The notes under the pieces were generated by a model. It was given only the letters and a program-made list of their open reading frames with translations. It was not told the DNA's origin and searched no databases. From the NCBI GenBank assembly GCA_947503765.1, contig CANNFA010000002.1, forward strand, positions 62,001-126,000: a DNA stretch of 64,000 bases, written 5' to 3'. Below are positions 1 to 9,597 of this stretch, piece by piece. The position numbers and the translations under genes are program-made. This stretch comes from an uncultured Paracoccaceae bacterium (GTDB lineage Bacteria > Pseudomonadota > Alphaproteobacteria > Rhodobacterales > Rhodobacteraceae). Every line of letters begins with the position of its first letter. Within the stretch, counting starts at the first letter, position 1.

Positions 1-595
1 CCATGATGTCGATGCCGAACACGCCGGCCAATGTCTCGGGCACGTGATCCTTCAGCCGCTTCAATTCGGCGATACCGTTCCGCAGGCTCAGCCTGTCGAT
101 GGCGAAGGCCGGCAGCAGGAAATGGTTGACCAGATCCCACACCTCGACGATGCCGCCCAGCAGCAGCGCCATCAGGCCGCCTTCCTTCTTCTTGCGGCTG
201 GCGACCCAGGCACCGGCCATATCCAGCAGGCCAAGAACACGAACCTGCGACCTGAGGCCGGCAATTTCGCGGCGCGCGTCCCGGCGCGTCGGGGTGCCGC
301 CGGAGGCCGTTCCATAGGTCAGCCGGCTGAGCGTCAGTTCGGCGCGGTTGTAGAAGAAGAACTTGTAGATGAACATCACCGCCCCGCCGAGAAGGAACCA
401 GGTGCTGTTGTCGTTTTCGTAGAAGATCAGGAAAAGCCCGGCAAAGAACAGCGCAATCATCACCGCGGCATAGATCCACATGACGAATAGCGGTGCCAGC
501 AACGCCCGGTTGCGACCGACAATGGTAAAGGTGTGCCGGACGAGAAAGCCCAGCTGCGCAAGGCGCGCCTTGCGGTCCGGTTTGGTGAAATCCAT
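1..595 (-). CDS. Integral membrane protein, N-terminal part (runs off the window)
   Basis: The reading frame starts at an ATG at 595 and is open to the window edge, so only about 198 N-terminal residues are visible. Residues ~37-60 and ~68-82 are hydrophobic and look like a pair of membrane segments; they are followed by a basic stretch and a segment with a run of lysines (VASRKKKEGG). I do not recognise the family. It is the last visible gene of a minus-strand run that includes a VWA-domain protein, an SH3-domain protein and another membrane protein, and begins 50 bp after the preceding stop, so it is probably co-transcribed. Coding assignment rests on the long open frame, membrane topology and context. 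Confidence 0.7.
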   Translation of the reverse strand, partial: MDFTKPDRKARLAQLGFLVRHTFTIVGRNRALLAPLFVMWIYAAVMIALFFAGLFLIFYENDNSTWFLLGGAVMFIYKFFFYNRAELTLSRLTYGTASGGTPTRRDARREIAGLRSQVRVLGLLDMAGAWVASRKKKEGGLMALLLGGIVEVWDLVNHFLLPAFAIDRLSLRNGIAELKRLKDHVPETLAGVFGIDIM

Positions 596-645
596 AATGT
601 GTTCCTTATCCTTCGTACTGCCGCCTCAAATCCGCCGGTACCGGC

Positions 646-1599
646 TCAGCGCGCCCGGCCGTCGCTGAGCGGGCCGAATGCCATCCCGTCATCGGCCAGC
701 CGGGCGGCGCCGTCCTGCATTGCCGCGGCGATGGCGGCGCTGTCCGAACCGTGTGCCTCACCTCGGCGTTTCGCGAGGATCCTGCCGGTCTCGATATCGA
801 CGATCTGCGCGAAGACCTCGGCGCGGGGCGGGTTGTCGAGCAGGCCGATCTGGAAGTCGAGCAGCCGGCGGGGCGGGTCCAGCGTGCCTTCTTCGGCGCG
901 GCAGACCTCGCGAAAGCGGGTCTTCGCCCGGGTGGCGGGCAGGATCGCATTGCCCGATCCCAGCAGAAAACGGATATGCCGCGAAGAGGCGGCGCGCGAC
1001 GGATCGGCCACATTCGCCTCGATTTCGGCGGCGCGAAAGAAATCGCGCGGCGCGAAATCGGCGGTGGGCGGGGTCAGCCCGCGCCCTGCCATGAAGGCCC
1101 GCGCGGCCGCGTTTTCGCGTGCGAAGGCCTTGCGGTCGGCGTCGAAAATGCAATTGACGGGCTGGTGTTCGGTCGCCTTCACCAGCGTCAGCTTCATGCC
1201 GCGCTGTACGGTAAGACCGCCGCCGAACGCTTCCATCCAGCTGTCGATCCGGCGCGGCGTCAGCGCGGTGAACCTGAAAACGCGGGTCGCGCCGCCGCCG
1301 GTCAGCGTGCCGGTCCAGCCCGATGTCGCGGAGCGCAGGATGGGCATGCGCATGCCTTGCCCGTCGATGACGATCCGGTCGCAGCCGTCATAGGTCAGAT
1401 CGACCGTGCCCTCGTTGCGATTGCGCGGGTCGACCTGCACCATGCCGCCGCCCGACATGATGACATCGCCCGATATCGCTTGGTACCGCCCCTGGCAGGG
1501 CAGGGGGTCCGCCCCGGCCGGCAGGGGCAGCGATAGTGCGGCAATGGCCAGGGCCTTGCCCGCGCGGTGTCCGAAACATCTCACTGCGGAAAGCTCCAT
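646..1599 (-). CDS. Secreted protein of unknown function in the VWA locus
   Basis: 317 residues. The start is the ATG at 1599, 19 bp inside the end of the SH3-domain gene, because it places a signal peptide (ALAIAALSLPLPAGA) at residues ~13-27; the much longer in-frame extension upstream overlaps that gene and is rejected. The N-terminal half looks beta-rich (motifs GRYQAISGD, TYDGCDRIVIDG). The C-terminal quarter contains AQIVDIETGRILAKRRGEA, a pattern reminiscent of periplasmic CsgG/TolB-like domains in which a protein reports a 'variable x value' strand pair; this is only a resemblance. Translational overlap with the SH3 gene suggests the two products act together in the periplasm. Function unknown. 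Confidence 0.75.
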   Translation of the reverse strand: MELSAVRCFGHRAGKALAIAALSLPLPAGADPLPCQGRYQAISGDVIMSGGGMVQVDPRNRNEGTVDLTYDGCDRIVIDGQGMRMPILRSATSGWTGTLTGGGATRVFRFTALTPRRIDSWMEAFGGGLTVQRGMKLTLVKATEHQPVNCIFDADRKAFARENAAARAFMAGRGLTPPTADFAPRDFFRAAEIEANVADPSRAASSRHIRFLLGSGNAILPATRAKTRFREVCRAEEGTLDPPRRLLDFQIGLLDNPPRAEVFAQIVDIETGRILAKRRGEAHGSDSAAIAAAMQDGAARLADDGMAFGPLSDGRAR

Positions 1600-2399
1600 T
1601 CGTCGTGCTCGATGCGGAAAATCCGGACCGGGCTGCCGGGCTGTCCGGTATCGGCGCGCAGCCGAAAGATGGCGCGATCCGGCCGGTCGAAATTGGTGAA
1701 ATCGACATTGACGGTGATCATGCCGCGAAACATCGGCTGGTCCGGATCGGGCGCAATGCGGGTGATCCGGCCCTGGAAATCCTGTGCATCGTACAGCAGA
1801 TCGCCGCCATGCCCGGCCAGCGCCGGGACGATGCCCGCAAAGAAATAGCGTTCGGCATTGCCGGCCAGAAACGGATAATCCGCCCGGGATTGCGATGCCG
1901 CCTCGGCCGCGTAAAGATCGCGCACCAGCCGAGCCGCGTCGTCGATCAGCGGATCGCCGATGGTCTTCGCCGCGGGAACGGCATCGGACCGGGTATCGGG
2001 CGCCGCCGCCGCGCCGGTATCCTCCATGATGAAACGCTGCGCGACCCAGCCCGCCTTGGCGAAATCGTCGGTCTGCATCAGGCACCAGCGCTGCGGCAGG
2101 CCAGCGCGCTGCGCCTCGGTCAGCCGGTGTTGGATGGACGGGATCAACAGCGGCACGCAGGTGATCTGCCGCAGCCCGCGCGCATCGGGCGCCAGATGGT
2201 CGATCACCAGATATTGCGTGCCCGGCCCCATGCGCATGTTGAGCACATCGTCGGGCGCCACCCCGGTCACGCGCCAAGCATCGGGCCCGTGACCGTCGAT
2301 CTCGGCATTGGCGGCAGATGCGGTCACCGCGGCGGCAAGTGCCGCCGCGATGATCTTCAGCCCGCGCCATTTCCCGTGCTTCCGTCCGGGGCGCATCAT
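1581..2399 (-). CDS. Periplasmic SH3-domain (SH3b) protein
   Basis: 272 residues with an N-terminal signal peptide (hydrophobic residues ~14-32 ending in ASAANA). Residues ~44-126 show the bacterial SH3 pattern: VLNMRMGPGTQY, then a conserved cysteine/tryptophan strand (RWCLMQT) and a closing GWVAQRFI. SH3b domains commonly bind peptidoglycan or other envelope partners. The C-terminal 140 residues (PFLAGNAERYFFAGIVPAL onward) are of unknown fold. Its ATG at 2399 overlaps the stop of the VWA gene by 4 bp and its own end overlaps the next gene by 19 bp, so the three are translationally coupled. A second, unrelated SH3 protein lies at 53971-54810. Confidence 0.8.
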   Translation of the reverse strand: MMRPGRKHGKWRGLKIIAAALAAAVTASAANAEIDGHGPDAWRVTGVAPDDVLNMRMGPGTQYLVIDHLAPDARGLRQITCVPLLIPSIQHRLTEAQRAGLPQRWCLMQTDDFAKAGWVAQRFIMEDTGAAAAPDTRSDAVPAAKTIGDPLIDDAARLVRDLYAAEAASQSRADYPFLAGNAERYFFAGIVPALAGHGGDLLYDAQDFQGRITRIAPDPDQPMFRGMITVNVDFTNFDRPDRAIFRLRADTGQPGSPVRIFRIEHDEWSFPQ

Positions 2400-4681
2400 T
2401 TCACCTCCACCACGGAGCGGCCCAGGATCTCCTGGCCGGAGATATCCAGGAAGCGGACCTCGTAGAGACCCGGCTCCTCGGGCATCTTCAGCTCCATGCT
2501 GTCTGCCTCTCCGACCGGGTGAGCGGAAATCCAGCCGAAGAGCGGCTGGTCCTTGCGCGCCAGCGAAATCCGCTGATCCGCCCCGTCGCCGCCGCCCGTC
2601 CAGGACACGGTGACCGTCTCGCCCGGGGCGGCGGTTTCGGGCACCGACAGACCCGCGCCCTCGTCGAGCGGTGCATCCGCCGCGATCACCTCCAGCGGGA
2701 TGCCGGCGAGCGTCTTGCCGCCCACGTCGAGGATATAGCGGATCTCGTACATGCCGGTCGCGTCGGGGGCTTTCAGTCGTCCCTCGGTCTTGTCGCCGAT
2801 GCGCATATAGGTGCCGCGCGTGCCCTCGTCGGCGCCCATCGGCACGATGGCGATCATGTCCCTTCCATGCACCGTCGAGGACCAGGAGATATCGACATCG
2901 GTGCCCGCGCGCACCGTTCCGGGGCCGGCAATGCCGATCTCTGTCTCCACAACCTCGATGGGGGCGGTGGCCAGTGTCTTGCCGCCCACGTCGAGGATAT
3001 AGCGCAGCTCGTACATGCCCGGCTCGGACGGTGCCTTGAGGCTGCCTTCGGTCTTGTCGCCGACCCGCAGATAGGTGCCGCGCGTGCCCTCATCCGCGCC
3101 CATCGGGACGATGCCGATCATGTCGCGGGAATTGACAGGCTCGCTCCAGCCGATGTCGAAGGCCGCGCCGGTGACCACGGTTTCGGGACCGGTGACGCTC
3201 GCCTCTGCGGCGATCACTTCGATGGACGCGGTGGCCAGCGTCTTGCCGCCCACGTCGAGGATGTAGCGCAGCTCGTAGATGCCCGGCTCGGACGGCGCCT
3301 TGAGGCTTCCGGCGGTCTTGTCGCCGACCCGCAGATAGGTGCCGCGCTTGCCTTCGTCGGTGCCCATCGGGACGATGCCGATCATGTCGCGGGAATTGAC
3401 CGGCTCGCTCCAGCCCACGTCGAAGACCGCGCCGGTGACCACCGTTTCGGGGCCGGTAACGCTGGCCTCAGCCGCAATCACCTCGATGGGCGCGGTGGCA
3501 AGGGTCTTGCCGCCCACGTCAAGGATATAGCGCAGCTCGTACATGCCCGGCTCGGACGGAGCCTTGAGGCTGCCGGCGGTCTTGTCGCCGACCCGCAGGT
3601 AGGTGCCGCGCTTGCCTTCGTCGGTGCCCATCGGGACGATGCCGACCATGTCGCGGGGATTGACAGGCTCGCTCCAGCCGACATCGAAGGCCGCGCCGGT
3701 GACGGCCGTTTCGGGGCCGGTGACGCTGGCCTCGGCGGCGACCACCTCGATGGGGGCGGTGGCGAGTGTCTTGCCGCCCACATCGAGGATGTAGCGCAGC
3801 TCGTACATGCCCGGCTCGGCCGGCGCCTTGAGGCTGCCGCTGGTCTTGTCGCCGACGCGCAGATAGGTGCCGCGCTTGCCGTCATCCGCGCCCATCGGGA
3901 CGATGCCGACCATGTCGCGGGAATTGACGGGATCGCTCCAGCCGACATCGAAGGCCGCGCCGGTGACCACCGTTTCGGGGCCGGTGACGCTTGCCTCGGG
4001 CAGGGCCGGTTCGGGTTCGGTCTGCGGTTCGGGTTCGGCGGCCGGCTCCTGTAGGACCGCGCCCTGCACCTGGGCGAGCGCCGCGTGCAGCTCATCCGCA
4101 TTGCCCGCCGGGACGAACATGCCGCCGGTGTTTTCGGCGATGCAGGACAGGCTGGCATGCGCCGCGTCCTCCAGATCGAAGCCGACGACATGGGCGGTGA
4201 ACTTGACGCCCTGCCGGGCGAGTTCAGCCGACAGCGCGCAGGGATCGGCGTTGCAGGTTTCGACCCCGTCCGAAAGCAGCACGACCGTCGCCGGAGTATC
4301 GCGGTACGACAGCAGTTCGGCCGCCTGCCGGACCGCCTCTGTCAGCGGCGTCTTGCCCACCGGCATGATCGCGTTGACCGTGTCGATGAAACCGGCCTTG
4401 TCCATCGGGCCCGGCGCGACGAGCGTCTCGATATCGGTGCAATCGCCCTTGCGGCGATGGCCATAGGCGATGAGGCCGAGATTCGTATCCGCATCCCAGC
4501 CATTCACCAGGTCGGCCATCACCTCGCGGGCGATCTCGATCTTCGACGTGCCGTCGATCTGGCCCCACATGGACCCCGAGGCATCATAGACGATGACCAC
4601 ATCCTCGGCGGCGGCCGGCGCGGCGCAGGCGATTGCCCCCGCCATCGCCAGGGTTGCCAGTCCCGGTGCCAATCTGTTCAT
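2396..4681 (-). CDS. Secreted VWA-domain protein with five tandem repeats
   Basis: 761 residues. A signal peptide (residues 1-25, ending APAAAE) precedes a von Willebrand factor type A domain (~26-205) with an intact MIDAS start DASGSMWG (33-40), a TPLTEA loop and a LLSDGVETC strand. A short Pro/Glu linker (~211-229) leads to five near-identical 88-residue repeats (230-317, 318-405, 406-493, 494-581, 582-669) and a divergent sixth module (670-761). Each repeat carries RDMVGIVPMG, GTYLRVGDKT and PGMYELRYIL, suggesting an immunoglobulin-like beta sandwich; the 'xxGIxP...PGxYELRY' pattern resembles SKICH-type modules. VWA domains with MIDAS usually bind protein partners through a metal. It is probably an envelope or surface adhesion/assembly protein; the substrate is unknown. 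Confidence 0.9.
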   Translation of the reverse strand: MNRLAPGLATLAMAGAIACAAPAAAEDVVIVYDASGSMWGQIDGTSKIEIAREVMADLVNGWDADTNLGLIAYGHRRKGDCTDIETLVAPGPMDKAGFIDTVNAIMPVGKTPLTEAVRQAAELLSYRDTPATVVLLSDGVETCNADPCALSAELARQGVKFTAHVVGFDLEDAAHASLSCIAENTGGMFVPAGNADELHAALAQVQGAVLQEPAAEPEPQTEPEPALPEASVTGPETVVTGAAFDVGWSDPVNSRDMVGIVPMGADDGKRGTYLRVGDKTSGSLKAPAEPGMYELRYILDVGGKTLATAPIEVVAAEASVTGPETAVTGAAFDVGWSEPVNPRDMVGIVPMGTDEGKRGTYLRVGDKTAGSLKAPSEPGMYELRYILDVGGKTLATAPIEVIAAEASVTGPETVVTGAVFDVGWSEPVNSRDMIGIVPMGTDEGKRGTYLRVGDKTAGSLKAPSEPGIYELRYILDVGGKTLATASIEVIAAEASVTGPETVVTGAAFDIGWSEPVNSRDMIGIVPMGADEGTRGTYLRVGDKTEGSLKAPSEPGMYELRYILDVGGKTLATAPIEVVETEIGIAGPGTVRAGTDVDISWSSTVHGRDMIAIVPMGADEGTRGTYMRIGDKTEGRLKAPDATGMYEIRYILDVGGKTLAGIPLEVIAADAPLDEGAGLSVPETAAPGETVTVSWTGGGDGADQRISLARKDQPLFGWISAHPVGEADSMELKMPEEPGLYEVRFLDISGQEILGRSVVEVK
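2675..3994 (-). repeat. Five in-frame 264-bp tandem repeats inside the VWA gene
   Basis: Five consecutive 264-bp units encode residues 230-669 of the VWA protein. Units 1-4 differ by only a handful of residues each (for example ADDGKR, TDEGKR, TDEGKR, ADEGTR in the same loop), whereas unit 5 is more diverged (IGIAGPGTVRAG). The high nucleotide similarity points to recent expansion or gene conversion, so copy number may vary between strains and assemblies. Confidence 0.95.
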
Positions 4682-4743
4682 CGATCATTCCTTCCATTCA
4701 TTCGCATATCGCCCGAACTGTGCCGCCGGGGCTGCCCTGCCCG

Positions 4744-5730
4744 TCACACGGGGTCAGGGGTGGCGGGCTCGGGCGTCTGTGCCGGTGCCGCGGCACCAAG
4801 CGCGCGGTCCTTCAGCTTGCGGAACTTGCCCGACATCTGTTCAAGCCGCGCGTCCCATTCGGGGTTGGGCTGCTGTCCCTCGATCGTCTTGAAGAAGACC
4901 TGCATCATGCAGGCGAGCGCGAAGGGTTCCAGCAGCGCGGCCTTGACGCTCCAGGCGAAGAGCAGCGCAAAGACCACGCCGCCGGCCGCCCAGGCGCCGG
5001 GCATGAGATAGACGACCAGCGCCGCCGGGGCCAGCATGACCAGGAACACCAGGAAGCCGAGGCCATAGACGAAGATCGCCAGCCACGCCGCATTCTTCAG
5101 CATCACCTTCCAGTTCTGCCCGTAAAGCACCAGCGCCTCGCGCGCCGATCCCCAGGCATTGTCCGAGCGGGTGCGGATGGCATGGGCCAGGATCACCTCG
5201 TCCACGAAGCCCACCGCAACACGCAGGAAGGCCGACAGGATCGCGCCGACCTGCCGTGCGCCGGGCACCGGCAGGACCGTCAGGATGCCGCGCGCCAACC
5301 CGCTGACCGCACGGATCACGCCCCGGATCAGCTGATCCATCACGAACAGCACGCTGGCCTGCGGAAAACGCTGCCGGACAACCGCCGCCGCATGGCCGAT
5401 CTGGCCGCGCCCCTGCGGCATCGGCTTGCCGTCGATCAACTCGACCAGCACGGCGATATGCCCCGCCTTGACGATGTAAAGGATGTATTCACGGGCCCAG
5501 TACATGACGGCGCCGAAGATGCCGAACCCCGCGATGCCGCCCCAGAAGGTCGAACCCGCGCGGAATTCGTCGTTGCCGAAGCCGCCGATGCCCCAGCCGA
5601 TCCCGGCTCCCGTGCCGGTGACCAGGACATAGCCCAGCGTGATCCCGAAATAGACCGCCATGCGCAGCAATATGAAGGGCAGCGTGCGTCCCATCATCCC
5701 CATCGCGCCGCCAAGGCTGAAATCCCACAT
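4744..5730 (-). CDS. Polytopic membrane protein of the VWA locus
   Basis: 328 residues. Hydrophobic segments lie at ~18-40, ~62-80, ~211-245 (long, probably two helices) and ~248-275; the rest is amphipathic, with a cytoplasmic-looking tail rich in Arg/Lys (SGKFRKLKDRA) and Pro at the C-terminus. No enzyme motif is recognised. It lies 62 bp upstream of the VWA gene and 41 bp downstream of a lipoprotein gene on the same strand, so all are likely one operon. A role anchoring or exporting the VWA/SH3 proteins would fit but is inference. Confidence 0.8.
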   Translation of the reverse strand: MWDFSLGGAMGMMGRTLPFILLRMAVYFGITLGYVLVTGTGAGIGWGIGGFGNDEFRAGSTFWGGIAGFGIFGAVMYWAREYILYIVKAGHIAVLVELIDGKPMPQGRGQIGHAAAVVRQRFPQASVLFVMDQLIRGVIRAVSGLARGILTVLPVPGARQVGAILSAFLRVAVGFVDEVILAHAIRTRSDNAWGSAREALVLYGQNWKVMLKNAAWLAIFVYGLGFLVFLVMLAPAALVVYLMPGAWAAGGVVFALLFAWSVKAALLEPFALACMMQVFFKTIEGQQPNPEWDARLEQMSGKFRKLKDRALGAAAPAQTPEPATPDPV

Positions 5731-5771
5731 CGCCTATCTCCCTGCTGCAAGGCCGCCGCCGGGGCGGGCTG

Positions 5772-6155
5772 TCATGTTTCGCATTTCCCGTTGCCGAATT
5801 TCAACGTGCAGGCCCGCGCCGCACAGGCCGATATCTGCGCGTCGCGCTGCGTCTTGCGGATGTCCACGGTCTCGATCGCGGTATAGGGAATCGAGACGGT
5901 TTCCATCACCGGCTGGCAAAGCGTGGTCGCGCCGGTCGTCTCGCACTTCGTCTCGCCCGTCGGACGCCGTTCGCTGCGGTGCTTCGTGACCCGCTCGTCG
6001 CGAAAGACGGGCGGGATCTTGAGCATCCACTCCGCTTCGCATTGCGTCCGTTCGGCGCGATATTCCGGCGTGCCGCAACCGGAAAGAAGCAGCATCCCCG
6101 AGACGCCCGCCAGGCACATGCGTCTTGTGGTTCCAGTCAGGCCGTTCAAGCGCAT
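5772..6155 (-). CDS. Small cysteine-containing lipoprotein
   Basis: 127 residues from the ATG at 6155. A lipoprotein signal ends in the lipobox LLSGC (cysteine at residue 27). The mature part contains seven cysteines (for example TQCEAEW, TKCETTGATTLC, SACAARACTLKF), suggesting disulfides in the periplasm. An in-frame ATG at 6167 gives four extra residues and cannot be excluded; the much longer frame upstream runs antisense over the next gene and is not used. This is the first gene of the minus-strand VWA run and is divergent from the plus-strand gene at 6312, so promoters for both directions should lie in 6156-6311. Family not recognised. Confidence 0.7.
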   Translation of the reverse strand: MRLNGLTGTTRRMCLAGVSGMLLLSGCGTPEYRAERTQCEAEWMLKIPPVFRDERVTKHRSERRPTGETKCETTGATTLCQPVMETVSIPYTAIETVDIRKTQRDAQISACAARACTLKFGNGKCET

Positions 6156-6311
6156 CCTCGCCCCCATGATCGTGATTCGGCGAAACACTCGCAAACCCCG
6201 GACGGCGGCGCCCCGTTCATTCGCAGGGGGCGGCCGGGTTATTTGCATGTTAAAGGGTTTGCGTATTCCGCCGCCGGTTGTTGAACTGGGCCGGATCGGA
6301 GGGAGAGCGGC

Positions 6312-6785
6312 ATGCGAAACGGTGTGACCGGACTTGCAATGTTCATGATGGCGGCAATGCCGGCCGCGGCGGATGACGGCCCGGCCGTGCTGCGTGTCAC
6401 GGGCAATATCGCGGGGGGACCGGCCAGTTTCGCTCTGGACACCCTGCGCGATCTGCCCGAGGCGACGCTCGAGACCTCGACCGTCGTGACCGACGGCACC
6501 CATCGCTTCACCGGCTTTCTGATGCGCGATCTGCTGGACCGGGTCGGGGCGAGCGGAGATCACGTCACCGCCTCCGCCCTCAACGACTATGCCGTGGACA
6601 TACCCGTCAGCGATTTTCGAGACTATGACGTGATCGTTGCCTATGCGATGGACGGCGCCCCGCTTGAACGGGCGGACAAGGGGCCGCTCTGGATCGTCTA
6701 TCCCCGCGACGACCACACCGAGCTTCAGGATATCCGCTTCGATTATCGCTGGGTCTGGCAATTGTCCGGCCTCGAGATCCGATGA
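6312..6785 (+). CDS. Periplasmic molybdopterin-binding-domain-like protein
   Basis: 157 residues with a signal peptide (cleavage near MPAAA/DDG). The mature protein resembles the small 'oxidoreductase molybdopterin-binding' domain: FTGFLMRDLLDRVG, VTASALNDYAVDIPVSD, PLWIVYP and a final RWVWQLSGLEIR are typical of this fold. It contains no cysteine, so the molybdenum-ligating cysteine of sulfite-oxidase-type enzymes is absent and catalysis is unlikely. Its stop overlaps the ATG of a histidine kinase by 4 bp, so it probably acts as the periplasmic ligand-binding partner of that kinase. The ligand is unknown. Confidence 0.8.
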   Translation: MRNGVTGLAMFMMAAMPAAADDGPAVLRVTGNIAGGPASFALDTLRDLPEATLETSTVVTDGTHRFTGFLMRDLLDRVGASGDHVTASALNDYAVDIPVSDFRDYDVIVAYAMDGAPLERADKGPLWIVYPRDDHTELQDIRFDYRWVWQLSGLEIR

Positions 6786-8551
6786 CGGGCCGCTCCGGCG
6801 GCTCCGCCTTCTGGCTTGCCCTGCCGCTTGTCGCGGTGGCTGCATTTGCGGTGCTGCTGACCTTTTCGCTTGTCCGGATGATCCGGGTCGAGGCCGACAT
6901 GCGCGTCGAGGCCGAACAGAACATGCTGTGGGTCATGCACCAGAGCGAGGCGGCGGCGCGGCGGCTGGGCGAAACGGTGCTGCTGGCCGAACTTGGCGAG
7001 GCGGACACGGCCGAGATCGCCCTGCGCCTCGACATCCTGCGCAGCCGGATCGCGCTTCTGAATGACGGCCCGCAACGCCGCTTCGTCGACAGCATCGGGC
7101 TTGGCGGCGACCTGGACAGGCTGACCGGCCTGCTGGGCGCGATCGGCACCCTGCCCGAGGGCGCGGGCGAAATCCGGGCCAGCCGGCTGCGCGCGGCGCT
7201 GGCCCCGTTCCCGACATTTTTCGCCCGGGCCGCCAACAAGGCGATGATCGCCGAATGGGACGAGCTTGGCGGGCGGCTGGAAACCTACCGCGACCAATTG
7301 CGAAAGACCATCGCCGGGCTGATCGGCATAATGGTCGCGGGCGCGATCCTGGCCGCCGCCCTGGTGATTTCACTGCGCAATTCGCGTCGGCGCAACCGGA
7401 TGCTGCGGCGCGCCCGGGATTTTTCCGGGCTGCTGATCGCGTCGAGCGGCGAGGGTATCGCGGCGGTGGACACGGCCGGGCGCTGCACGCTGTGGAACGG
7501 GGCCATGGCGGCGATGATGGGACGACGGGCCGAACAGGCGGTCGGCAGCCCGCTCGCCAAGGTGGCCGGGTTCTTCGATGTCGCCGCGATCCGCGACGGC
7601 GTGACCCGCGCCCTGGCGGGGGAAAGCACGCAATTGCAGCTTCAGCCGCTGTTCCGCGATACGGAAGAGACGCCGGATCATGTCGATCTGCGGTTCTTCC
7701 CGATGCGCGACGAGACCCGCATCGTCGGTGCGATCATCTTCATGCAGGACGCCAGCGACCGGTACGCGGCCGACCGCAAGGATGCCGAAACGCGCGCGCG
7801 GCTCGAACATCTGGTGGCCGAACGCACGCGCAAGCTGGACGACGCGCTGCGCCGTGAAAGCTCGGCCGCCGATCTTTACCGGAACTTCGCGGCGATGATC
7901 TCGCACCAGTTCCGAACGCCGCTTGCGGTGGCCGATTCCGCGCTGCAAAGGCTGATCCGGCGCGGCAGCCGGGCGGACCCGGACGAGGTGGCCGACCGCG
8001 CCGGCCGGGCGCGCGGCGCCATCGCCGGGCTGACACGGCTGGTGGACAGCACGCTTCATGCCGCGCGGATCGAGGCCGGAGAGGTGGGCGCGCGCCGCGA
8101 GCCCTGCGATCTTGTGCCGATCGTGACCGCTGTCTGCGACCAGCAGCGCGCCGCCGTTCCCGAAACGCGGATCAGCATCACCGCGCCGGCCGCGGCGCCG
8201 GTATTGTGCGATCCGGCCCATGCCGAACAGGTGCTGAAGAACATGGTATCGAACGCGGTGAAATACGCGCCCCCCGGCTCCGAGGTGTCGGTGGCACTGC
8301 GTGTGGACGCGCAAGGGGTGCATTGCGACATCGGCAATTCCGGCGCGGGCATCGCACCGCCCGACCGCCCGCGCATCTTCGAGCGCAATTTTCGCGGCGC
8401 CAACAGTGTCGGCTCGCCCGGCACCGGTGTGGGGCTTTTCATTGCGCGGGCGCTGGCGCGGATGCAGGGCGGCGATGTCGCCCTGCTGCCATGCGATGAC
8501 GGCACCGTCTTTCGCCTGTCGCTGCGGCAGCCCGAGGGAGCGGCGCCATGA
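6782..8551 (+). CDS. PAS-containing sensor histidine kinase
   Basis: 589 residues. A first membrane helix (~12-32) and a second (~178-197) bracket a periplasmic, mostly helical sensor of about 145 residues. A PAS-like domain (~211-325) and a short coiled linker (~332-362) lead to the HisKA box with the phospho-accepting His375 in SHQFRTPLAVA, then an HATPase with the N box NMVSNAVKYAPPG and G boxes (NSGAGIAPPDRPRIFE, GTGVGLFIA). The gene overlaps its upstream neighbour and the downstream response regulator by 4 bp each, making a cognate pair. The signal is presumably received with the help of the periplasmic protein encoded just upstream. Confidence 0.92.
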   Translation: MTGRSGGSAFWLALPLVAVAAFAVLLTFSLVRMIRVEADMRVEAEQNMLWVMHQSEAAARRLGETVLLAELGEADTAEIALRLDILRSRIALLNDGPQRRFVDSIGLGGDLDRLTGLLGAIGTLPEGAGEIRASRLRAALAPFPTFFARAANKAMIAEWDELGGRLETYRDQLRKTIAGLIGIMVAGAILAAALVISLRNSRRRNRMLRRARDFSGLLIASSGEGIAAVDTAGRCTLWNGAMAAMMGRRAEQAVGSPLAKVAGFFDVAAIRDGVTRALAGESTQLQLQPLFRDTEETPDHVDLRFFPMRDETRIVGAIIFMQDASDRYAADRKDAETRARLEHLVAERTRKLDDALRRESSAADLYRNFAAMISHQFRTPLAVADSALQRLIRRGSRADPDEVADRAGRARGAIAGLTRLVDSTLHAARIEAGEVGARREPCDLVPIVTAVCDQQRAAVPETRISITAPAAAPVLCDPAHAEQVLKNMVSNAVKYAPPGSEVSVALRVDAQGVHCDIGNSGAGIAPPDRPRIFERNFRGANSVGSPGTGVGLFIARALARMQGGDVALLPCDDGTVFRLSLRQPEGAAP

Positions 8552-9597
8552 AACCGGCCGGTCCTGCCCTGATTCTCGTCGTCGAGGACGAGGCCGCCCT
8601 GCGCGCCGACATCGTCGAGGAATTGCAGGAGGCCGGGTACCGCACGGCGGCGGCCTCCGGCGGGCACGAGGCGCTGGAACTGCTTTCCGGCACCGTGCCC
8701 GACCTGGTGCTTTGCGACATCACCATGCCGGGGCTCGACGGCTACGGCCTGCTGTCGGCCCTGCGAAAGGAGCGCCCCGATCTGGCCGCGACGCCCTTCG
8801 TCTTCCTGACCGCGCTGTCAGAGCCGCGCGACGTGATCGAGGGCAAGCTCATGGGCGCCGACGACTACCTTGTGAAGCCGGTGGATTACGACCTGATGCT
8901 GGCGACCATCGCCGCGCGTCTGCGCCAGGTCGCGCGCATCCGGCACCATCACGGCGACGAGATCGAGACCCTGCGCCAGGCGCTTGCCGGGCTGTCGGCG
9001 GGCGGCGCGGAACGGGCGCTCGACCTCATCGCGCTGGGAATCGTGCTGCTGGACGCGCGCGGCCGGGTGCTTCACGCCAACCGCGCGGCGCGTGCCATGG
9101 CCGCGCAGGGCGACTTCATCATCCTGAGCCAGGGCGCGGTCGGCGCGCCGGAAACGCCGTGCGACCGCATGCTGCAACAAGCGCTGACCGGCGCGCTCGA
9201 GGCCGCGCGGGCCGGGGTCGAAAAGGTGACCGGCGTGCGGCTGCAAGGGCGGGCGGATGCCACGGCCGTCTCGGCGCTGGTCTGTGCCCTGCCGCCAACC
9301 GCCGATCTGCCCGCGCCGCAACCCCGCGCCGCGGTGTTCCTGTCGCCGCCGGCACGCGAAAGGCGGGTATCCGAGCCGCTGCTGATGGAGCTGTTCGGCC
9401 TGACGCCTGCCGAAACCCGCGTCGCCACCGCCCTGGCAGGCGGCGCGCGCCCATCCGACATGGCCGTCGAGCTGGGGGTGTCGCAAACCACCATCGCCTT
9501 CCACATGCGCAACCTGTTCCAGAAGACCGGAACCCACCGCCAGACCGACCTTGTCGCCCTGATCCTTGCCGGACCGATGATGATCGACCCGGTATAG
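8548..9597 (+). CDS. Response regulator with LuxR-type HTH
   Basis: 349 residues. The receiver domain (~8-125) has the acidic pair VVEDE, the phospho-acceptor Asp57 in LCDITMPG, a conserved threonine (FLTAL) and lysine (YLVKP). A middle segment (~150-250) contains IVLLDARGRVLHANRAA, a degenerate PAS-like pattern. The C-terminus (~280-345) is a GerE/LuxR helix-turn-helix (LTPAETRVATALAGG, ELGVSQTTIAFHMRNLFQKTG). The receiver-PAS-LuxR order is longer than NarL-type regulators (~210 residues). It is coupled to the upstream kinase; targets are unknown but may include its own operon or the divergent VWA locus. Confidence 0.9.
   Translation: MKPAGPALILVVEDEAALRADIVEELQEAGYRTAAASGGHEALELLSGTVPDLVLCDITMPGLDGYGLLSALRKERPDLAATPFVFLTALSEPRDVIEGKLMGADDYLVKPVDYDLMLATIAARLRQVARIRHHHGDEIETLRQALAGLSAGGAERALDLIALGIVLLDARGRVLHANRAARAMAAQGDFIILSQGAVGAPETPCDRMLQQALTGALEAARAGVEKVTGVRLQGRADATAVSALVCALPPTADLPAPQPRAAVFLSPPARERRVSEPLLMELFGLTPAETRVATALAGGARPSDMAVELGVSQTTIAFHMRNLFQKTGTHRQTDLVALILAGPMMIDPV

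Follow-up and report, generated by a model that had tools for sequence, protein, structure and literature searches.

A candidate pterin-responsive two-component system and a divergent envelope operon with a common predicted operator in an uncultured Paracoccaceae bacterium

What governs the group of envelope genes at one end of a 64,000-nucleotide stretch of DNA from an uncultured Paracoccaceae bacterium (GenBank assembly GCA_947503765.1, contig CANNFA010000002.1, positions 62,001 to 126,000; the whole stretch is hereafter called the window), and what are these genes for? In this study, positions 1-9597 of the window, together with 386 bases beyond its edge, were concluded probably to form one unit: a pterin-responsive two-component system and an envelope assembly regulated by it, whatever the exact job of the latter. 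Pterins are small redox-active molecules, which the sensor would detect on the outer side of the cell membrane. Control of the envelope operon by the pterin-responsive system is very likely, judging from the genes and their common predicted operator. The gene set, homologies, motifs, operator and distribution described below were all read from sequences. A first-pass annotation of the same DNA had recognized the envelope genes and missed the divergent sensor half at 6312-9597.

Layout of the locus

The features are given below as positions in the window; gene starts in relatives are approximate (the simple codon-bias caller used misses or misplaces some of them).

6211..6230, minus strand: predicted operator CCCCCTGCGAATGAACGGGG, a 20-bp inverted repeat in the divergent intergenic region
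6312..6785, plus strand: putative PruR-type periplasmic pterin-binding protein, 157 amino acids, Oxidored_molyb fold without cysteine
6782..8551, plus strand: putative DTB-type sensor histidine kinase, 589 amino acids, periplasmic region with W160-x7-E168, PAS, HisKA and HATPase_c
8548..9597, plus strand: response regulator, 349 amino acids, REC, weak PAS and LuxR-type helix-turn-helix
5772..6155, minus strand: small lipoprotein, 127 amino acids, first gene of the operon, lipobox ...LLLSGC by eye
4744..5730, minus strand: memA, polytopic membrane protein, 328 amino acids, CysZ/CTL-like predicted fold
2396..4681, minus strand: secreted VWA protein, 761 amino acids, signal peptide by eye, metal ion-dependent adhesion site (MIDAS) motifs and 88-residue modules
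1581..2399, minus strand: secreted SH3-like protein, 272 amino acids, N-terminal part SH3b-like, C-terminal half unclassified
646..1599, minus strand: P5, optional secreted protein
1..595, minus strand: memB, optional membrane protein, running 386 bases past the window edge

All six minus-strand genes of the first-pass annotation were confirmed, as were the overlaps of 4 bp (VWA and SH3-like genes) and 19 bp (SH3-like and P5 genes) that it gave. The window edge truncates memB; the full-length gene present in the genome encodes 326 amino acids (L004:12595-11615; L, G and C numbers denote loci, genomes and contigs). A convergent gene follows that resembles by eye one for a sugar-transport ATPase, and the operon therefore ends at memB. 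The sensor genes are also coupled, with overlaps of 4 bp between pruR and the kinase gene and of 4 bp between the kinase and regulator genes.

A conserved predicted operator in the divergent intergenic region

Of the two flanking genes, the lipoprotein gene begins 55 bp and pruR 81 bp downstream of the predicted operator. Relatives of the VWA protein were collected from named genomes, and the best 80 of 319 were kept; with the window locus and a paralogue from the same genome, this gave 82 loci, 31 with memA and 51 without. Alignment of 26 divergent intergenic regions revealed one conserved block, CCCYVTBYRAAYRVABGGGG (IUPAC code). A regular expression for this block matched 22 of the 26 regions, and close variants were present in the other four (L049, L062, L073, and L081).

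With a weight matrix trained on 22 sites, the best score was at least 21.2 in every one of the 31 memA-VWA loci, including 9 that had contributed nothing to the training set. Among other memA relatives (36 loci, 27-76% identical), the best score was 8.3, and three of the 51 VWA-only loci exceeded 19 (L056, 28.6; L030, 23.0; L055, 19.9). The operator was absent from L155, where a 55%-identical memA has a VWA match nearby, and from L161, which has a 76%-identical memA. Approximately 2.1 Mb of locus sequence, scanned in reverse, contained no match at a threshold of 23.9. One exact match of the pattern was found in the 4-Mb genome to which the window belongs; nine other genomes held 0 to 3 matches each (12 in total), with none in the backward control. 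Two of these nine, G653 and G669, gave no pattern match because their sites are variants. A scan of 5600-6800 for sigma-70-type promoters detected none, the same as in shuffled sequences.

The operator also stands directly upstream of VWA genes away from memA, at 181 bp in L056 and 99 bp in L030, and no PruR was found in the flanking DNA examined at either locus. G536 has two sites, one preceding a VWA gene (L182) by approximately 87 bp and one beside memA (L126); the former gene is truncated by the end of its contig, and its remainder probably lies on the contig carrying PruR and memA, so that it does not count as an independent case. Two sites were not counted as support: that of L055, which is 1.3 kb from the VWA gene and on the other strand, and a degenerate site in L033 scoring 12.7.

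Further copies were noticed elsewhere. One is at L015:300-319, at the start of a secreted-protein gene on the far side of the sensor genes; the N-terminal part of this protein resembles by eye a gene inside the L019 operon. Two exact pattern matches 2.7 kb apart (L181:5967 and L181:8621, on G159:C25) lie beside genes that look by eye like those for dTDP-sugar synthesis. This pair, near sugar-nucleotide genes, and a match at G462:C39 may be due to chance or may mark further regulon members.

Predicted sensor genes of the PruR-DTB kind

The product of the first plus-strand gene matched the molybdopterin-binding oxidoreductase domain of Pfam (Oxidored_molyb, E = 1.3e-11). A family profile built from 18 sequences placed it in the PruR branch of the SUOX-type fold, matching PDB chains of PruR-type pterin-binding proteins, namely 7kos/7kou (E = 2.7e-37), 7rkb (6e-33), 7kom (2.1e-22), and 7kp2 (1.4e-19). 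In PMC13259868, N102, Y104, and W160 are given as the pterin-contact residues of PruR from Agrobacterium tumefaciens; by alignment spacing, these correspond to N91, Y93, and W149 of the window protein, which are invariant in 18 of 18 sequences. The window PruR has no cysteine and so none to hold molybdenum. Across the family, 1-2 cysteines occur in 11 of 29 reading frames, many of them in the leader by eye and one near the C-terminus in L019. From these features, the window PruR is predicted to be a pterin binder. It is the only PruR in its genome, and a PruR-profile scan of viral contigs found no relative.

The kinase carries WX7E in its periplasmic region, the motif given for DcpA and for the DcpA-TorS-BaeS (DTB) sensors in PMC13259868. 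The genes at 6312-9597 thus fit a PruR-DTB system, with the kinase likened to DcpA-type sensors through WX7E.

A reductase encoded in the genome carries two pteridine-reductase motifs, TGAAKRLG and, by eye, YTLAK. A search with TIGR02685 gave matches at 26 places in this genome and in 13 of 14 control genomes, all of them below the cut-off; the pteridine reductase call therefore rests on the two motifs. With such an enzyme, reduced pterin could be produced by the cell itself.

Conservation of the gene set

Among the 31 memA-VWA loci, PruR and the kinase were found in 29, the regulator in 26 (excluding the window locus, where the stretch compared ends inside the kinase gene), the SH3-like gene in 21, the lipoprotein gene in 19, memB in 7, and P5 in 3. 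The SH3-like count is lowered by eight loci whose contigs end inside the VWA gene, as is expected for near-identical repeats. In the 51 VWA loci without memA, several of which are cut by contig ends, no PruR match was found at E ≤ 1e-5; in one of them, L018, the sequence begins within the VWA gene and includes the SH3-like gene.

The order lipoprotein-memA-VWA-SH3 recurs across relatives, and the same genes are present in rearranged order in L010, L012, and L041. The coherent envelope operon proposed in the first-pass annotation is thus borne out in its order, although P5 and memB are optional and the lipoprotein is not universal. Independent scattering of the six genes, the outcome named there as speaking against such an operon, was refuted for the core, although VWA and memA relatives also occur alone elsewhere. 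The gene set was found in Rhodobacterales, Rhizobiales and one Vreelandella (Halomonas-group) record, L062.

Large secreted proteins are encoded in or beside some loci (L011:3412-5928, L017:11936-14230, L049:9965-12085, and L187:576-2522). Those tested (n = 2) had no Pfam match. HExxH was seen by eye in accessory proteins of L011, L017, L019, and L049, which resemble secreted zincins. Ten accessory proteins and proteins of the second kind of locus described below were searched against Pfam: seven had no match at E ≤ 0.05, and the others matched SH3_3, VWA_2 and, below threshold, a bacterial PH domain.

A second kind of PruR locus with the same site

PruR relatives were present in at least 208 of 394 family genomes and fell into score groups: seven at 236-267 bits (the window kind), seven at 180-202 bits (a second kind), and then 152 bits and below. 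The operator was found upstream of pruR in six of the seven second-kind loci (L166, L183, L185, L186, L187, and L188), with scores of 25.6-32.4. No second-kind locus had trained the matrix; L166 and L183 first surfaced through the site, so the untouched count is 4 of 5. The next nine PruR loci of the ranking (L190-L198) had no site scoring 15 or more.

A divergent operon with a VWA-family match accompanied four of the six site-bearing loci (L166, L186, L187, and L188). The same modules were detected by profile in all three tested (L166, L187, and L188), and the one second-kind protein tested, from L187, contains a Pfam VWA domain. L183 has no VWA gene within 14 kb, and L185 ends 69 bases past its site. 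In G733, a VWA operon has the operator and no sensor beside it, and a second-kind PruR system with the same site lies approximately 12 kb away. Regulators of both PruR kinds have a common LuxR-type DNA-binding end; at six PruR loci farther removed (L193-L198), the nearby regulator-like matches lack it. The L017-type secreted protein recurs beside L187 with 43% identity.

Proteins of the envelope operon

The VWA domain with intact MIDAS reported in the first-pass annotation was upheld by Pfam VWA (E = 1.5e-9) and by DASGS at residue 33, GKTP at 109, and LSDG at 136. A loose MIDAS motif set was present in 81 of 81 family members, including the window protein and its paralogue (L018, which lacks the start of the protein, was omitted from the 82); a strict pattern demanding SGS, which excludes the variant DxSNS, matched 50 of 82. 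Weak profile matches to CoxE-type and BatA models were also obtained.

Five 88-residue modules had been counted; these were found again, and a divergent sixth had been overlooked. Four repeats are 89-93% identical in protein sequence and the fifth is 62-66% identical. Complete relatives have 4 to 6 modules beside memA and 4 to 9 elsewhere, the divergent last one included. Three C-terminal modules were modelled from 49 sequences with a predicted local distance difference test (pLDDT) score of 91.2, and the model matched tandem immunoglobulin (Ig)/fibronectin type III (FnIII) domains in Foldseek (E = 3.3e-9). A single module matched the biofilm-associated protein 7c7u (Z = 9.5; root-mean-square deviation [rmsd], 2.8 over 84 residues). 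Such matches are broad and name an Ig/FnIII fold for the modelled modules, not a function. The fold came from the model; comparison with PDB sequences gave a lone match at E = 0.2, taken as chance.

In the lipoprotein, six cysteines besides the lipobox cysteine are invariant in all 17 sequences aligned. The SH3b call is weak, since the family profile matched the solved SH3b domain 2krs (E = 0.0078) over 28 residues only and the protein matched no Pfam family at E ≤ 1. P5 had no family match in profile-library searches; its homology with the "c11" secreted protein of relatives (E = 0.17 in a single comparison) was not supported.

These proteins bear on another reading, in which the operon, still controlled by the two-component system, serves periplasmic stress response or quality control instead of building a surface or attachment structure. 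Envelope integrity would then be guarded by memA and the VWA protein when the pterin redox state signals oxidative stress. The operon products carry export signals or membrane segments by eye, no sorting motif was seen in the VWA protein, and zincin-like secreted proteins accompany some relatives, one kind recurring at the second-kind locus L187. All of this would suit such a module. However, no protease or chaperone family was matched among the proteins of the window operon (Pfam and NCBIfam), and Ig-like stalks of variable length are more typical of adhesive or spacer proteins. We regard the stress reading as unlikely, though a serious contender.

A second VWA-module protein of the family is encoded in the same genome (L005:10060-12636, contig C3), with neighbors resembling by eye binding proteins of ATP-binding cassette (ABC) transporters. 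No operator-like site scoring >12 was found within the 20 kb examined there.

The membrane protein memA and its distribution

The most conserved of the four families aligned is memA, with a mean column identity of 84%. A model built from 28 sequences had moderate confidence (pLDDT, 71.3). Foldseek alone gave no match at E ≤ 0.001 (best E = 0.026). In a second structural comparison, the six best matches were all CysZ, CTL1 or PNS1 (Z = 12.8-15.4, with up to 242 residues aligned and rmsd of 3.7-5.8), including CysZ 3tx3 (Z = 15.4; rmsd, 3.7 over 220 residues) and CTL1 7wwb (Z = 13.6; rmsd, 5.8 over 242 residues); Z fell to 6.7 after these six. Profile comparison of memA with memB (probability 0.3 of 100, E = 0.21) did not support their being paralogues.

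These matches, together with the high conservation of memA, raise the possibility that it is a transporter of the CysZ/CTL kind and that the operon serves solute or signal transport with the VWA protein and lipoprotein as periplasmic accessories; no pterin efflux system has been identified so far, according to PMC13259868. We consider this improbable: the model confidence is moderate, Foldseek gave no match at its threshold, searches of memA against Pfam and NCBIfam gave no transporter family at E ≤ 1, high Z values come easily with helical folds, and a common fold is no proof of function.

Among 385 class genomes, 4 contained a memA relative, as did 44 of 394 family genomes, most of the 44 being other memA relatives; the genome of the window has one memA. 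This patchy distribution would suit a mobile block of sensor genes and operon that merely travels together, with the site serving the promoter of the sensor genes only. This reading is very improbable because the site immediately precedes VWA genes at loci where the DNA examined contains no PruR (L056 and L030) and also precedes VWA operons with no adjacent sensor (L021 and L050).

Signs of decay were seen in some loci, namely a memA match split with a stop in G397 (L160), a lipoprotein frame with a stop in L021, and a memA remnant with a stop in G400 (L189). Outside the locus, a cluster resembling ectoine-synthesis genes by eye lies approximately 8 kb past the window edge (L004:334-4190; window -11666 to -7810) and is followed by a sugar ABC transporter.

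Proposed mechanism

The reading preferred here, control of the envelope operon by a pterin-responsive two-component system, would work as follows. Reduced pterin reaching the periplasm would bind PruR, and the loaded PruR would touch the periplasmic domain of the kinase, which would change the phosphorylation of the LuxR-type regulator. The regulator would bind the 20-bp inverted repeat between the divergent transcription units and set the expression of lipoprotein-memA-VWA-SH3, with P5 and memB where present, and probably of its own genes. The operon products would reach the envelope and assemble there. The VWA protein, a MIDAS head carried by an Ig-like stalk whose length varies, would serve as a secreted binding or scaffold protein; memA would be the partner in the membrane, and the lipoprotein and SH3-like protein would act as anchors in the envelope. 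As PruR-DcpA suggests by analogy, the job may be attachment or surface adaptation to redox state. Attachment is the most likely job because PruR-DcpA controls attachment in Agrobacterium; we put it forward tentatively.

Several observations weigh against this reading. The site at 6211-6230 could be the target of another regulator or a structured RNA element. L021 and L050 keep the operator and have no adjacent PruR or kinase. In L189, a second-kind locus, PruR, the kinase and a LuxR-type regulator are present and the site is absent. At the position of the A. tumefaciens PruR tryptophan (TTPW), the window family mostly has valine, and ligand preference may therefore differ. Across 25 aligned kinases (three more distant ones, L010, L012, and L041, were omitted), the glutamate of WX7E is kept in 16, replaced by D in 7, and replaced by another residue in 2 (G in L020 and A in L062). 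Relatives of memA, mostly 55-66% identical, occur in varied contexts with no operon partners: 29 of 40 family regions examined (L127-L155) carry such a memA, nearly always without partner genes, and 20-odd neighborhoods of other memA relatives contain varied, housekeeping-like genes by eye. Therefore, memA has a use independent of the PruR system. Finally, attachment is argued from analogy and fold only.

A wider speculation, which we hold to be quite improbable, is that these loci represent a class of pterin-gated envelope machines. PruR-DTB systems with a LuxR-type regulator and a common operator would control Ig-stalked VWA proteins in at least two diverged operon kinds, external pterins would be a redox or community signal switching surface structure, and memA would be a channel through which the pterin signal, or a related solute, passes the inner membrane.

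Comparison with known systems and significance

PruR-DTB pterin-sensing two-component systems are described in PMC13259868 as widespread in Proteobacteria, and no output or target is named for the DTB sensors in the parts of that review consulted. The window resembles these systems in having a PruR homologue of similar size with the pterin-contact residues and a coupled two-gene arrangement with a PAS histidine kinase bearing WX7E. It differs from them by adding a coupled LuxR-type regulator gene, a conserved operator and a defined envelope operon as the apparent target. For PruR-DcpA of A. tumefaciens, the same review gives attachment control, through synthesis and breakdown of cyclic diguanylate (c-di-GMP), as the known output. 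A PruR-type protein and a periplasmic sensor with WX7E are common to both; unlike the c-di-GMP route, the output in the window, as read from the genes, would be a phosphorelay to a DNA-binding regulator.

On the output side, memA is like the CysZ sulfate permease and CTL/PNS1 in predicted fold and unlike them in having no detectable sequence relation. The gene context of CysZ and CTL/PNS1 also differs from that of memA. Bacterial VWA proteins of the MoxR/CoxE-associated and Bat types have a VWA domain with MIDAS, as does the window protein. In contrast to these, the latter is secreted and has tandem Ig-like modules, and no AAA+ partner such as a MoxR-type ATPase was found in the nine core genes (six operon genes at E ≤ 1, memB as its 198-residue window part; three divergent genes at E ≤ 0.01).

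No description of the output operon, the operator or the link to pterin sensing was found in the open-licence PMC literature searched. The earlier view that the locus is not covered by a known system thus stands for the output operon, for which no published name was found in that literature, and not for the regulatory half; the sensor genes, which the first-pass annotation left unconnected, fit a known, published kind.

The locus may thus provide the first candidate target for the pterin-sensing DTB kinases, whose targets were found nowhere named in the literature searched. With sensor, regulator, predicted operator and a single adjacent operon side by side, the question of what pterin-sensing kinases control becomes directly testable. 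The locus also offers the first functional leads for an unnamed membrane protein of CysZ/CTL-like predicted fold and for a family of VWA proteins whose Ig-like modules stand in tandem.

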